From: Thermoanaerobaculum aquaticum
GTDB lineage: Bacteria > Acidobacteriota > Thermoanaerobaculia > Thermoanaerobaculales > Thermoanaerobaculaceae
Reading direction: 5' to 3'
Assembly: GCF_000687145.1 (NCBI RefSeq)
Contig: NZ_JMFG01000001.1
Location: 17,217-50,029 of the forward strand
DNA length: 32,813 nt
Shown here: piece by piece, positions 26,749-30,354 of the stretch
Position numbering within the stretch: position 1 is the stretch's first letter
Layout of the letters: every line of letters starts with the position of its first letter
The notes under the pieces: generated by a model
Told to the model about the DNA's origin: nothing
The model's input: only the letters and a program-made list of their open reading frames with translations
Database searches by the model: none
Translations under genes and position numbers: made by a program

Positions 26749-26777
26749 TTGACAGTATCGGCAACAGGGATTATACT
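26749..26777 (+). promoter_or_regulatory. Near-consensus sigma-70 promoter of the cytochrome/porin operon
   Basis: TTGACA (26749-26754), 17-bp spacer, TATACT (26772-26777); only one base differs from the consensus hexamers. It is the best promoter in the window. Transcription would start near 26784. Confidence 0.85.
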
Positions 26778-26791
26778 TTTTTGTGACAGCT

Positions 26792-26806
26792 GGGGGGTAA
26801 ACCCCC
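26792..26806 (+). promoter_or_regulatory. Hairpin in the 5' leader of the cytochrome operon
   Basis: GGGGGG (26792-26797), loop TAAA, CCCCC (26802-26806), about 8 nt after the likely start site and 9 nt before GGGAGG. It could protect the mRNA 5' end or modulate ribosome access. Confidence 0.45.
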
Positions 26807-26825
26807 TAATCTGCGGGAGGTGCTT

Positions 26826-27188
26826 GTGAACGGGAAAACAAGGTTTAAAGCCTGGATGGCCGCGGTGGTGCCGGTGCTAGCCGTGGCGGTGGGTTTGGTT
26901 TGGGCTGCCGACAAGGCTCCGGACGGGAAGACCCTGTTCCGCGAGTACTGCAAGCCCTGTCATGGGCCCGATTCACCCAACGGTGAGGTCACGCCCATGA
27001 CCCTCATCCAGGACCAGTGGGAGCGCTTCTTCAAGGAAAAGCTGGTGCCCTCGCACGGCAACCTGGACGATCCCAAGGGAAGCGGGAAGAAGCTCCTGGA
27101 GGTGTTGACGCCGGAGCTTCTGGAAAAAATCAAGAAGTTCGCTTTGGAACACGCTGCGGATTCCGAACACCCCATGACTTGTGGCTAA
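26826..27188 (+). CDS. Small monoheme cytochrome c
   Basis: The 120-aa exported protein has an N-terminal signal segment (KTRFKAWMAAVVPVLAVAVGLVWA, cleaved near residue 28, written here as its hydrophobic run) and one heme-binding site, CKPCH at 42-46. The remainder, with DQWERFF and GKKLLEVLTPELLEKIKKFALEH, is helical, as in class I cytochromes c. It should be a soluble or anchored periplasmic electron carrier. I choose GTG 26826, 5 nt after GGGAGG. GTG 26820, the nearest alternative, would overlap the Shine-Dalgarno. It is the first gene of a cytochrome-porin-octaheme set, 16 nt before the porin start. Confidence 0.85.
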   Translation: MNGKTRFKAWMAAVVPVLAVAVGLVWAADKAPDGKTLFREYCKPCHGPDSPNGEVTPMTLIQDQWERFFKEKLVPSHGNLDDPKGSGKKLLEVLTPELLEKIKKFALEHAADSEHPMTCG

Positions 27189-27204
27189 GAAAGGAGGCCC
27201 AAAC

Positions 27205-28842
27205 ATGAAACGTGTTTTTGCATCGTTCCTGCTCCTGGTTGCTCCGCTTGCCGTCTTTGGCCAGCAGAGCAGCCAAGACGAAGCGGAAAAGCTACGGCAG
27301 CAACTGAAGGAAATCGAAAAGCGCTTGCAAAAGGTGGAAAAGCAGGCGGCCCAGGACCGTATTCGGTTCGGTGGCGACTACCGCTTTGAGGCCCATTCCA
27401 TTGCTGCCACGATCCCCGACTATTACGACGGCATGGCCCTGCAAGCGGGGTTGGTGAACACCATGTTCTACTACGGGGCGACGGGTCAGCTCCCCACCTC
27501 GCCGGCGGCGGTGCAGCAGTTCATCGCTTCGCACTACGGCGACTACCTGTACTTCACCAACTCGCTAACGTTTGACCAGCTGAAGAGCGCCATGGCTTCT
27601 TTCCCGCCGCAAATGCAGCAGCAGCTCATGATGATGCTACTCCCCGGTGCGTACCGGCACGGGTACGATGCCGACAACAGCCTCATGTACACCAACCGCC
27701 TGCGCCTCACCATGGATGCGGATGTGGCGGAAAACGTCACGTTTTCCGGCCGGCTCGCCATGTACAAGACCTGGGGGGACTCCACCGCGGTTCAGGTGTT
27801 CAACGGCCAAGCCAACAGCTTCAGCATTGACGGCAACACCGTAGGCGTGCCCAACTCCGACATCCTGCGCGTGGAGCGTGCCTACTTCACCTGGAACAAC
27901 ATTGCCGGTTTGCCGCTTTACCTGTCCATCGGTCGTAGGCCTTCCACCGGTGGTCCGCCCATGAACCTGCGCAAGGGCGAGCTGCGGGGCGGCACGCCCA
28001 TGGGCTCCCTCATTGACTTTCAGTTCGACGGCATCACCGTTGGCTACCATTTGGGTGAGCACTCCACCTTGCGGTTCTGCTACGGCCGCGGGTATGAGTC
28101 CGGCTTTGGCAACGGCGAGGTTTTGAAGCAGCCCGCCGACCGGCTTGAAGACGCCGACTTTTTCGGCATCAACTGGGACGTTTACAGCGACGACAACACC
28201 CTGCTGCAAACCACGGTGGCCCGGGCGTTCAACATCACCGACGGCTTTAACGGCCTCATCGTGCTGCCGGCCAACCCGCTTACCGGGCAACCGGTGAATG
28301 CGCCGGTGGTGATGCGGTTTACGCCTTCCGCCAACCTCGGCGATATGGACATTGCTGGCGTTCTCCTGAAGCGCAAGGACGGACCCTTCGATTGGTTCCT
28401 CAACGTCAACTACGTGAAGAGCCACCCTGACCCGGTGACCACCCCCTTTGGTGGTTTGTTCAGCGATCCCTTTGAGGTTCCCAAGTCCCATTCGGGATCC
28501 ATGTGGTACCTGGGGGGCCGCTACACCTTCAACAACGACCACACCATGGTGGGGTTGGAGTACAACCACGGCTCCAAGTACTGGTTCAACTTCACGCCGG
28601 CCCAGGACGACATCTTTGCCCCCAAGACCGCAGCTCGGGGCGATGTGGCCGAGGCTTACCTCATTCACCAGCTGGCCAAGCGCTTCTTCGTGCGGCTGGG
28701 AGTCATCAACTACCAGTACGACTATTCGGGCTCCAGCTGGCATCTGGGAGCCCCCAAGAAGCTGGATTCCAAGCCGATTCTGGGCTTCCCGACCTACGAC
28801 GACGCCACGGTGGTCACGCTTTCTATGACCGCCCGGTTCTAA
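27205..28842 (+). CDS. DUF3373-type outer-membrane porin
   Basis: The 545-aa protein has a signal peptide (MKRVFASFLLLVAPLAVFGQ). A short coiled coil follows (about 25-52, EAEKLRQQLKEIEKRLQKVE), then alternating beta-strand sequence to a terminal aromatic residue (TVVTLSMTARF), the usual outer-membrane barrel ending. Segments such as IRFGGDYRFEAHS, LMYTNRLRLTMDADV and ERAYFTWNNIAGLPLYLSIGRRPSTGGPP match the DUF3373 family of putative porins, often found beside multiheme cytochromes. It sits between a monoheme and an octaheme cytochrome, so it may house or serve an electron-transfer complex. ATG 27205 has AAGGAGG at 27191-27197. Confidence 0.85.
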   Translation: MKRVFASFLLLVAPLAVFGQQSSQDEAEKLRQQLKEIEKRLQKVEKQAAQDRIRFGGDYRFEAHSIAATIPDYYDGMALQAGLVNTMFYYGATGQLPTSPAAVQQFIASHYGDYLYFTNSLTFDQLKSAMASFPPQMQQQLMMMLLPGAYRHGYDADNSLMYTNRLRLTMDADVAENVTFSGRLAMYKTWGDSTAVQVFNGQANSFSIDGNTVGVPNSDILRVERAYFTWNNIAGLPLYLSIGRRPSTGGPPMNLRKGELRGGTPMGSLIDFQFDGITVGYHLGEHSTLRFCYGRGYESGFGNGEVLKQPADRLEDADFFGINWDVYSDDNTLLQTTVARAFNITDGFNGLIVLPANPLTGQPVNAPVVMRFTPSANLGDMDIAGVLLKRKDGPFDWFLNVNYVKSHPDPVTTPFGGLFSDPFEVPKSHSGSMWYLGGRYTFNNDHTMVGLEYNHGSKYWFNFTPAQDDIFAPKTAARGDVAEAYLIHQLAKRFFVRLGVINYQYDYSGSSWHLGAPKKLDSKPILGFPTYDDATVVTLSMTARF

Positions 28843-28849
28843 CGTGATT

Positions 28850-28884
28850 TTGGGGGCCAGCGTGCGCTGGCCCCCAACTCTTTT
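28850..28884 (+). terminator. Hairpin terminator or attenuator between porin and octaheme genes
   Basis: A perfect 12-bp stem (28850-28861 with 28866-28877, loop GTGC) is followed by CTCTTTT. The T-run is broken, so termination is probably partial. It would let the octaheme gene be read at a lower level than the porin. Confidence 0.7.
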
Positions 28885-28899
28885 CAAAAGGGGGGAGAA

Positions 28900-30303
28900 A
28901 TGAGGTTTCAAAGAGGAGTGATTTGGGCCATGCTCTTGGCTGCGCCACTTGCCGCCAAAGAGTACAGCCACCAGAAGTACTTCGAGCACTACGAAGGAAC
29001 CAAGACCTGTTTGAGCTGCCACGAAAAGGAAGCCAAGAGCTTCTTCCGCTCGCAGCACTACCAATGGCGCGGGCAAACCCCTAACCTGGTGAACGCCCGC
29101 GGTCAACGGTTGGGGAAGATCAACACCATTAACGACTTTTGCACCAACCCCAGGGCTTCCTGGATTGGTGTGGTGAAGAACTCCCGGGGCGAGGCGATTT
29201 CTGAAGGTTGCTCCAAGTGCCACGCCGGCCTTGGGCTCATGCCCTCCGAACAGGAAACCCCGGAGCAACTGGCCAACATTGACTGCTTGATTTGCCATGC
29301 CCAGGGCTACCAGCGGGATCTGTACCCCGACGGTCAGGGGGGCTGGGTTTGGAAGCCCGTCCTCTGGAAAAACCAGGAGGGGCTGGATGCGGTGGCCAAG
29401 CGCATTGGCATGCCCACCCGCAATACCTGCTTGCGCTGCCACGCCGGCTCCGGTGGTGGCCCCAACTTCAAGCGCGGGGACTTGGAGTACGCCCTTGCTG
29501 ACACCACCCGGGACTTCGATGTGCACATGGGCACCGACGGCGCCAACCTCCAGTGCATTGACTGCCACAAGGGCGAGGACCACCGGGTGCGCGGGCGGGG
29601 GAGCGACCTCTCCGGTACCGACTTTCCGGCCAAGCCGCTTTCCTGTGACGATGGTACCTGCCACGATTCCCGTCCCCATCCGGCGGAGGTCTTAAACCTC
29701 CACGCCCAACGGGTGGCTTGCCCCACCTGCCACATTCCTACCTTTGCCAAGGCCGATGCCACCGACATGGTGCGCGATTGGTCCAAGCCGGCATACAACC
29801 AGGAAGCCGACAAGTGGTCAGCAACGATCGAGTTCGCCAAGGACGTGAAGCCCGTGTACGCCTGGTTTAACGGCACCACCTGGGCGCAGCTCCCCGGTGA
29901 GCCGGTGAAGCTGCAGCCTGACGGTACGGTGGGCATGATGTTGCCGCAGGGCAGCCGGAAGGACCCCAAGGCGCGCATTTACCCGTTCAAGCTGCACCGT
30001 GGTGTGATGCCGGTGCTGGAAGGCAAGAACTACATCCTGCCCATTGCCGTGGAGGAGTTCTTTGCCGAAGGGGAGATCCACAAGGCCATCCAGCACGCCG
30101 CCGAAGAGATGTACGGCGTCAAGGACGCCCGTTACGGTTGGGTCAAGACCAAGCGGTACATGGGTATTTACCACGAGGTTGTGCCTAAGGAAAAGGCCTT
30201 AACCTGCTTGGATTGCCACGGTCCCAACGGCCGGCTGGACTGGAAGGCGCTGGGTTACGGTGCCGATCCCATCCTCCAGCGCTGGGCCAAGACCGGCAAA
30301 TAA
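28900..30303 (+). CDS. Octaheme c-type cytochrome, tetrathionate reductase (OTR) family
   Basis: The 467-aa periplasmic protein has a signal peptide (to about residue 19) and eight heme-binding sites. Seven are CXXCH: 37, 104, 129, 177, 219, 274 and 436. One is CX4CH: CDDGTCH at 249-255. The arrangement CLSCHEKEAKSFF, then LGKINTINDFCTNPRASW, then GCSKCHAGLG, is that of the octaheme tetrathionate-reductase family, which reduces sulfur oxyanions and some nitrogen oxides in vitro. Its true substrate here is unknown; metals via the neighbouring porin are possible. ATG 28900 follows GGGGGGAG. It is the third gene of the operon, behind a partial terminator. Confidence 0.9.
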   Translation: MRFQRGVIWAMLLAAPLAAKEYSHQKYFEHYEGTKTCLSCHEKEAKSFFRSQHYQWRGQTPNLVNARGQRLGKINTINDFCTNPRASWIGVVKNSRGEAISEGCSKCHAGLGLMPSEQETPEQLANIDCLICHAQGYQRDLYPDGQGGWVWKPVLWKNQEGLDAVAKRIGMPTRNTCLRCHAGSGGGPNFKRGDLEYALADTTRDFDVHMGTDGANLQCIDCHKGEDHRVRGRGSDLSGTDFPAKPLSCDDGTCHDSRPHPAEVLNLHAQRVACPTCHIPTFAKADATDMVRDWSKPAYNQEADKWSATIEFAKDVKPVYAWFNGTTWAQLPGEPVKLQPDGTVGMMLPQGSRKDPKARIYPFKLHRGVMPVLEGKNYILPIAVEEFFAEGEIHKAIQHAAEEMYGVKDARYGWVKTKRYMGIYHEVVPKEKALTCLDCHGPNGRLDWKALGYGADPILQRWAKTGK

Positions 30304-30330: not shown

Positions 30331-30354
30331 AGGGGCGACCGGCCGGTCGCCCCT
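30331..30354. terminator. 24-bp perfect palindrome between convergent genes
   Basis: The arm AGGGGCGACCGG is followed directly by its exact reverse complement. It lies 27 nt after the octaheme stop and overlaps the pncA stop codon (30353-30355). As RNA it forms about 10 bp with a 4-nt loop, on either strand, so it can end both transcripts. T-rich stretches follow only weakly. Confidence 0.6.

Follow-up and report, generated by a model that had tools for sequence, protein, structure and literature searches.

A DUF3373 porin and a monoheme cytochrome beside an exchangeable reductase: a probable entry and reductase module for sulfur-compound respiration in Thermoanaerobaculum aquaticum

Octaheme tetrathionate reductase (OTR) has been reported from the Thermoanaerobaculia as a predicted periplasmic enzyme, with otr transcripts rising 36-fold upon addition of tetrathionate (PMC8528874); the word "porin" is absent from the text of that study. 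Porins for polysulfide have been proposed elsewhere: in Desulfurivibrio, Deferribacter, and Deferrivibrio (PMC12142623, PMC6896113, PMC11896075), they are encoded close to genes for Psr/Ttr or for sulfurtransferases. Here, we analyze an OTR-like octaheme cytochrome of Thermoanaerobaculum aquaticum that is encoded together with a monoheme cytochrome c and a porin of the DUF3373 family. The window, meaning the whole stretch of DNA analyzed, comprises 32,813 nucleotides (contig NZ_JMFG01000001.1, positions 17,217 to 50,029).

DUF3373 is listed under TCDB 1.B.62, and "DUF373" under 1.B.60, in a table of PMC4827864. Two papers in the open-access literature mention DUF3373, and in the portions accessible neither ties the family to respiration; nor did we find in the open-access literature, whose scope leaves out most subscription journals, a description of the exchangeable cassette reported below. 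We consider it likely that the trio serves as an entry and reductase module for the anaerobic respiration of a dissolved sulfur compound, rather than as an electron conduit.

A constant porin and cytochrome with an exchangeable reductase

Among 396 genomes of the Acidobacteriota, the octaheme was found in 61 and DUF3373 in 69, and the two co-occur in 39 (Fisher P 7e-20). Porin loci, 68 from this phylum and 40 from the Desulfobacterota, were read by frame-wise hidden Markov model (HMM) search, and a partner was counted if its gene was on the porin's strand and no more than 5 kb away. A reductase partner was present at 67 of the 68 Acidobacteriota loci (29 OTR-like, 36 Psr/Phs-type, and 2 with both); the sole partnerless locus stops at a contig end 10 bases beyond the porin. 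The monoheme gene was present at 62 of the 68. In 29 Acidobacteriota loci, OTR is encoded on the porin's strand at a distance of at most two genes, and in 27 of these it is the direct neighbor, against about 0.01 direct pairs expected by chance in the 39 genomes with both. A few OTR assignments are weakly scored (for example, L118 at 58 bits). The preliminary description of this DNA had let its case depend on linkage of the three genes across genomes, and that linkage proves to be conserved.

The other partner, about 720 to 850 amino acids long, is a molybdopterin enzyme that has a Tat motif in most copies. Genes for an NrfD subunit and for a PsrB-like Fe-S protein usually accompany it, as does, often, a chaperone-like gene. 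The enzyme's best NCBIfam model is the thiosulfate reductase PhsA (NF012032; 619 bits versus a cutoff of 694), and its best solved relative is the Thermus enzyme of PDB 2vpw (E 1e-129). Many copies have a cysteine shortly after the Tat motif and may be lipoproteins. On a 111-row porin tree, built by a quick method that gave warnings on some long rows, the OTR/Psr label switches at least 12 times. Even within the window's own family, one genome (G349) has a porin 69% identical to that of the window, adjoined by Psr genes. The porin and the monoheme protein are the constant part of this arrangement and the terminal reductase is exchangeable, and this OTR/Psr-exchangeable porin cassette is new here. 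Gene calls and Pfam found none of the molybdopterin, Fe-S, and NrfD subunits of PsrABC/Phs in the window operon, and the single PhsA-model match in the window's genome is NapA-like.

The trio has also been lost together. At the syntenic site (L226, 8888-9535) of G356, a sister species within the genus, a TAG and a frameshift interrupt the monoheme gene, the porin persists as a fragment covering residues 287-393, and the octaheme has no match; this remnant records joint decay of the trio.

At a further locus (L229, 7258-9414), a 718-amino-acid octaheme that is distantly OTR-like follows the porin and the monoheme cytochrome; going by its sequence, it is possibly a third type of partner.

A link to sulfur comes from the Desulfobacterota, the name given to the phylum of L041 (a Desulfobacteraceae metagenome-assembled genome [MAG]). 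DUF3373 was found in 49 of 297 genomes, and the 40 loci read included 12 with OTR and 4 with Psr. One locus (L187) carries, in a single run, the porin, a YeeE-type sulfur transporter, TusA, the monoheme cytochrome, OTR, and a cytochrome b561; by inspection, L192 has the same order. At L164 the porin is followed by a small TAGC-ending protein, a triple-rhodanese protein, and PsrAB-NrfD; at L177 a dsrC gene lies upstream of the porin. L042 and L103, two loci in which no DUF3373 porin was called, have Sulf_transp-type genes next to their OTR genes.

The trio in the window

The locus spans positions 26749-30303, running from the monoheme cytochrome c through the DUF3373 porin to the octaheme cytochrome, all on the plus strand. 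Its features are as follows.

26749..26777, plus strand: sigma-70-like promoter, TTGACA-N17-TATACT, 11 of 12 consensus positions (by consensus match alone)
26826..27188, plus strand: exported monoheme cytochrome c of an unnamed family, one CXXCH (CKPCH), C-terminal HAADSEHPMTCG tail
27205..28842, plus strand: DUF3373 outer-membrane porin, ATG start, PF11853 E 2.7e-111, PDB 10aw match, diffusion-porin-like model
28850..28877, plus strand: hairpin with a 12-bp stem between the porin and octaheme genes, candidate terminator, attenuator, or mRNA-stabilizing element
28900..30303, plus strand: predicted periplasmic octaheme cytochrome of the OTR family, ATG start, TIGR04315 and 1sp3 matches
30331..30354, plus strand: terminator-like hairpin 3' of the octaheme gene

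Gene calls and family matches bear out the trio as the preliminary description had named it, and the claim that all three proteins are exported agrees with the hydrophobic, exported-type stretch at each N terminus. A lipobox was sought in the three N termini and found in none. The monoheme gene starts with GTG at 26826 (alternatively at 26820), and its stop ends at 27188. That the genes form one operon behind the strongest promoter of the window holds in part. The TTGACA-17-TATACT site is the better of just two promoter-like sites across the whole window, a number that equals the one in shuffled sequence. However, because a strong hairpin (28850-28877) stands between the porin and OTR genes, the third gene may not be fully cotranscribed. 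One can envision that this hairpin sets the ratio of porin to octaheme expression.

The octaheme matches the NCBIfam model for tetrathionate reductase family octahemes (TIGR04315) with 336 bits (E 3e-100), below the curated cutoff of 375, and we therefore call it OTR-like rather than placing it in NCBI's OTR subfamily. It aligns over nearly its full length with Shewanella OTR (PDB 1sp3; E 6e-64). Seven of its heme motifs are CXXCH and one, at heme 6, is CX4CH; all eight positions are kept in 65 to 66 of the 66 aligned rows. Lys191 of the window protein aligns with Lys153 of OTR and is lysine in every one of the 66 rows, while Cys81 aligns with Cys64 and is cysteine in 63 of them. In OTR, Lys153 is the ligand of the catalytic heme and Cys64 lies close by.

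The porin matches DUF3373 (PF11853) over profile positions 2-409 of 409, with 373 bits against a gathering cutoff of 26.1 (E 2.7e-111); one of its nearest relatives comes from a Thermoanaerobaculaceae MAG. A signal peptide is followed by a helical, coiled-coil-like segment and then by the beta-barrel. By sequence, it matches PDB 10aw, a "50 kDa outer membrane protein" (E 9e-18) that, judging from the molecule's name, would be Campylobacter Omp50; 10aw was not among the matches listed in the PDB fold search with the porin model, although the sequence search found it. The predicted barrel, from a moderate-confidence model with about 18 strand segments, aligns with smaller porins, namely the diffusion porins OmpM1, OmpF, OprP, Omp32, and DcaP (Z about 20-22). 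Pfam and NCBIfam scans of the porin gave no MtrB family match.

The monoheme protein matched no Pfam family above its curated cutoff; Cytochrome_CBB3 scored weakly (20.8 bits versus a cutoff of 27). Of 65 homologues, 64 have a cysteine at one of the three final positions. Such an almost invariant C-terminal cysteine in a monoheme cytochrome is new here. In the AlphaFold model, the C-terminal tail (117-120) has low confidence. The gene also accompanies Psr complexes that possess their own NrfD, so a role beyond electron delivery is possible; by its sequence, the cysteine tail may bind sulfur.

Two related observations concern small proteins at other loci. At L061, L069, L164, L166, L167, L168, L173, and L179, an exported-looking TAGC-ending protein of 103 to 131 amino acids is encoded directly downstream of the porin, ahead of a reductase or rhodanese gene; the frame-wise HMM reading did not find the monoheme gene in these eight loci, and the L164 protein matched no Pfam family. 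In another species of the genus (G697, contig C33), a monoheme homologue whose middle residues are apparently shifted ends in the tail QAADGEQPMPCG (L227, 6598-6927), where the contig ends.

In sulfur oxidation, the C-terminal cysteine arm of SoxY has a carrier role. By analogy, we offer the tentative and somewhat doubtful suggestion that the monoheme cytochrome and the TAGC-ending proteins could be periplasmic sulfur carriers, in which the C-terminal cysteine would take sulfane sulfur from the porin-admitted compound and hand it on to the reductase of the cassette, be it the octaheme or the molybdenum enzyme.

Substrate and route of electrons

From the comparative data, we infer the substrate, the direction of electron flow, the location of the octaheme, and the role of the monoheme protein as follows. 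The DUF3373 porin would pass an oxidant (tetrathionate, polysulfide, or thiosulfate) across the outer membrane. The octaheme, free in the periplasm, would reduce it at the lysine-ligated heme, probably from tetrathionate to thiosulfate. The exported monoheme cytochrome would partner the reductase, whether by donating electrons to it or by using its own C-terminal cysteine to bind the sulfur compound. In related bacteria, this pair of porin and monoheme cytochrome would work with a PsrABC/Phs-type reductase. The conserved equivalents of Lys153 and Cys64, together with the diffusion-porin-like model, fit a catalytic periplasmic octaheme that is fed a dissolved oxidant through the porin. Given that OTR reduces tetrathionate, nitrite, and hydroxylamine in vitro, its exchange with Psr is an independent and testable pointer to the substrate in vivo.

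Several points weigh against this proposal. The porin model has moderate confidence (pLDDT 61, pTM 0.60), and the window operon has no quinol dehydrogenase gene. Neither OTR nor Psr was found at 24 of the 40 Desulfobacterota loci, most of which group in porin clades of their own. Nitrite and hydroxylamine are also substrates of Shewanella OTR (PMC4484225), and the Psr family includes selenite reductases (PMC8528874), so that the substrate could be a selenium oxyanion. The strongest counterevidence comes from seven related Acidobacteriota loci (L037, L038, L081, L231, L233, L234, and L235) in which a decaheme of the GSU2203 type, DmsE/MtrA-like, comes after the trio; where the sequence extends far enough, a GSU2204-type protein comes next.

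These seven loci, and the adjacency of a porin gene to a multiheme cytochrome gene, would suit a trans-outer-membrane conduit. In that case, the octaheme would lie inside the DUF3373 barrel or up against it, electrons would pass to outside acceptors such as Fe(III) or Mn(IV), and the monoheme cytochrome would be a periplasmic feeder. Possibly, the seven loci instead reflect an electron link to a separate conduit. We regard the trio as a conduit as quite unlikely. The barrel models like an ordinary diffusion porin, the three proteins lack a lipobox, a Psr-type molybdenum enzyme takes the place of the octaheme at 36 of the 68 Acidobacteriota loci, and the Lys153 and Cys64 of catalytic OTR are retained. 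Moreover, the window's genome has a separate pair on another contig (C20; L216, 7656-10760), where an OmcA/MtrC-family decaheme (TIGR03507, 485 bits) adjoins a DmsE/MtrA-family decaheme. The window operon has neither an MtrA/DmsE-type decaheme nor a surface lipoprotein cytochrome, and the MtrA-like proteins of the genome are on other contigs. The preliminary description had left two options: that electrons cross the barrel, or that a small oxidant enters through the porin and reaches an octaheme reductase in the periplasm. The first is disfavored by the porin fold, the absent lipobox, the exchange for Psr, and the Mtr-type pair elsewhere, while the comparative evidence supports the second; neither the exchangeability of the octaheme nor the sulfur link in other lineages had been foreseen.

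If the module does admit a dissolved oxidant, that oxidant might be nitrite, with the octaheme acting as an ammonifying reductase of nitrite or hydroxylamine. The activity of Shewanella OTR on both compounds would agree with this, as would the lack of a clear NrfA in a search of the window's genome. We nevertheless think it unlikely, since the best relatives of the exchange partner are polysulfide and thiosulfate reductases, related clusters carry sulfur genes, and the genome has a separate locus with a NapA-like enzyme, an HAO-like octaheme, and a barrel of its own.

That locus (contig C9; L219, 5264-10885) encodes, in a row, the HAO-like octaheme, an Alginate_exp barrel, a four-heme open reading frame, and the NapA-like enzyme, and is a second porin, octaheme, and molybdenum-enzyme set in this genome.

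Respiration of selenium or tellurium oxyanions, as in the Geobacter ext system, would have the porin admit selenite, with reduction by a relative of OTR or by a Psr-family enzyme of the Srr branch. The parts are alike in that extHIJ encode a 49-kDa rhodanese-like protein, a porin, and a 104-amino-acid protein, and ExtI has been implicated in selenite and tellurite reduction (PMC5877670). Rhodanese genes do occur at L063 and L164, and a rhodanese next to a Psr-clade enzyme has been taken as a sign of selenite reductase (PMC8528874). ExtI, however, has been assigned to the phosphate-selective O/P porin family rather than to DUF3373 (PMC5877670); YeeE-type transporters, TusA, and DsrC indicate sulfur, and the window operon is without a rhodanese gene. 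In our judgment, this is a very improbable account of the trio.

The proposal gives DUF3373, a porin family of unknown function, a testable role in respiring dissolved sulfur compounds. The loci also show that two unrelated terminal reductases, a multiheme cytochrome and a molybdenum enzyme, swap behind one outer-membrane pore and small cytochrome. More generally, caution is in order, as a porin-plus-cytochrome pair need not mean an extracellular electron conduit.

Comparison with described systems

Porin-cytochrome conduits (PCC) of the Mtr type share with this locus the joint coding of a porin and a multiheme cytochrome; the window operon differs in having no MtrA-type decaheme, MtrB family match, or surface lipoprotein cytochrome. 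In length and barrel type, the window porin resembles TCDB families 1.B.60 (Omp50) and 1.B.62, for which the excerpted account names no respiratory partner (PMC4827864). Geobacter extHIJKL likewise combines a porin, a rhodanese, a small protein, and cytochromes, with a proposed role in oxyanion entry; in the excerpt, ExtI belongs to another porin family, and no OTR or Psr partner is named (PMC5877670).

The proposed polysulfide porins are alike in that a porin encoded near sulfur respiration genes would admit polysulfide. They differ, in the excerpts at hand, in that the Deferrivibrio porin is of the phosphate-selective type and that neither an exchange with OTR nor a monoheme cytochrome is described.

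PsrABC/PhsABC (Thermus 2vpw) takes, in relatives, the position that the octaheme has in the window, next to the shared porin and monoheme cytochrome; it is a molybdenum-FeS-NrfD enzyme absent from the window operon, whereas the window reductase is a multiheme protein. The octaheme of S. oneidensis OTR (1sp3) has in common with that of the window its eight hemes, the Lys153 and Cys64 equivalents, and a signal peptide. The window's clade departs from it by the CX4CH motif at heme 6. The window octaheme itself scores below the TIGR04315 cutoff, and its gene, unlike that of S. oneidensis OTR, stands together with genes for a porin and a monoheme cytochrome.

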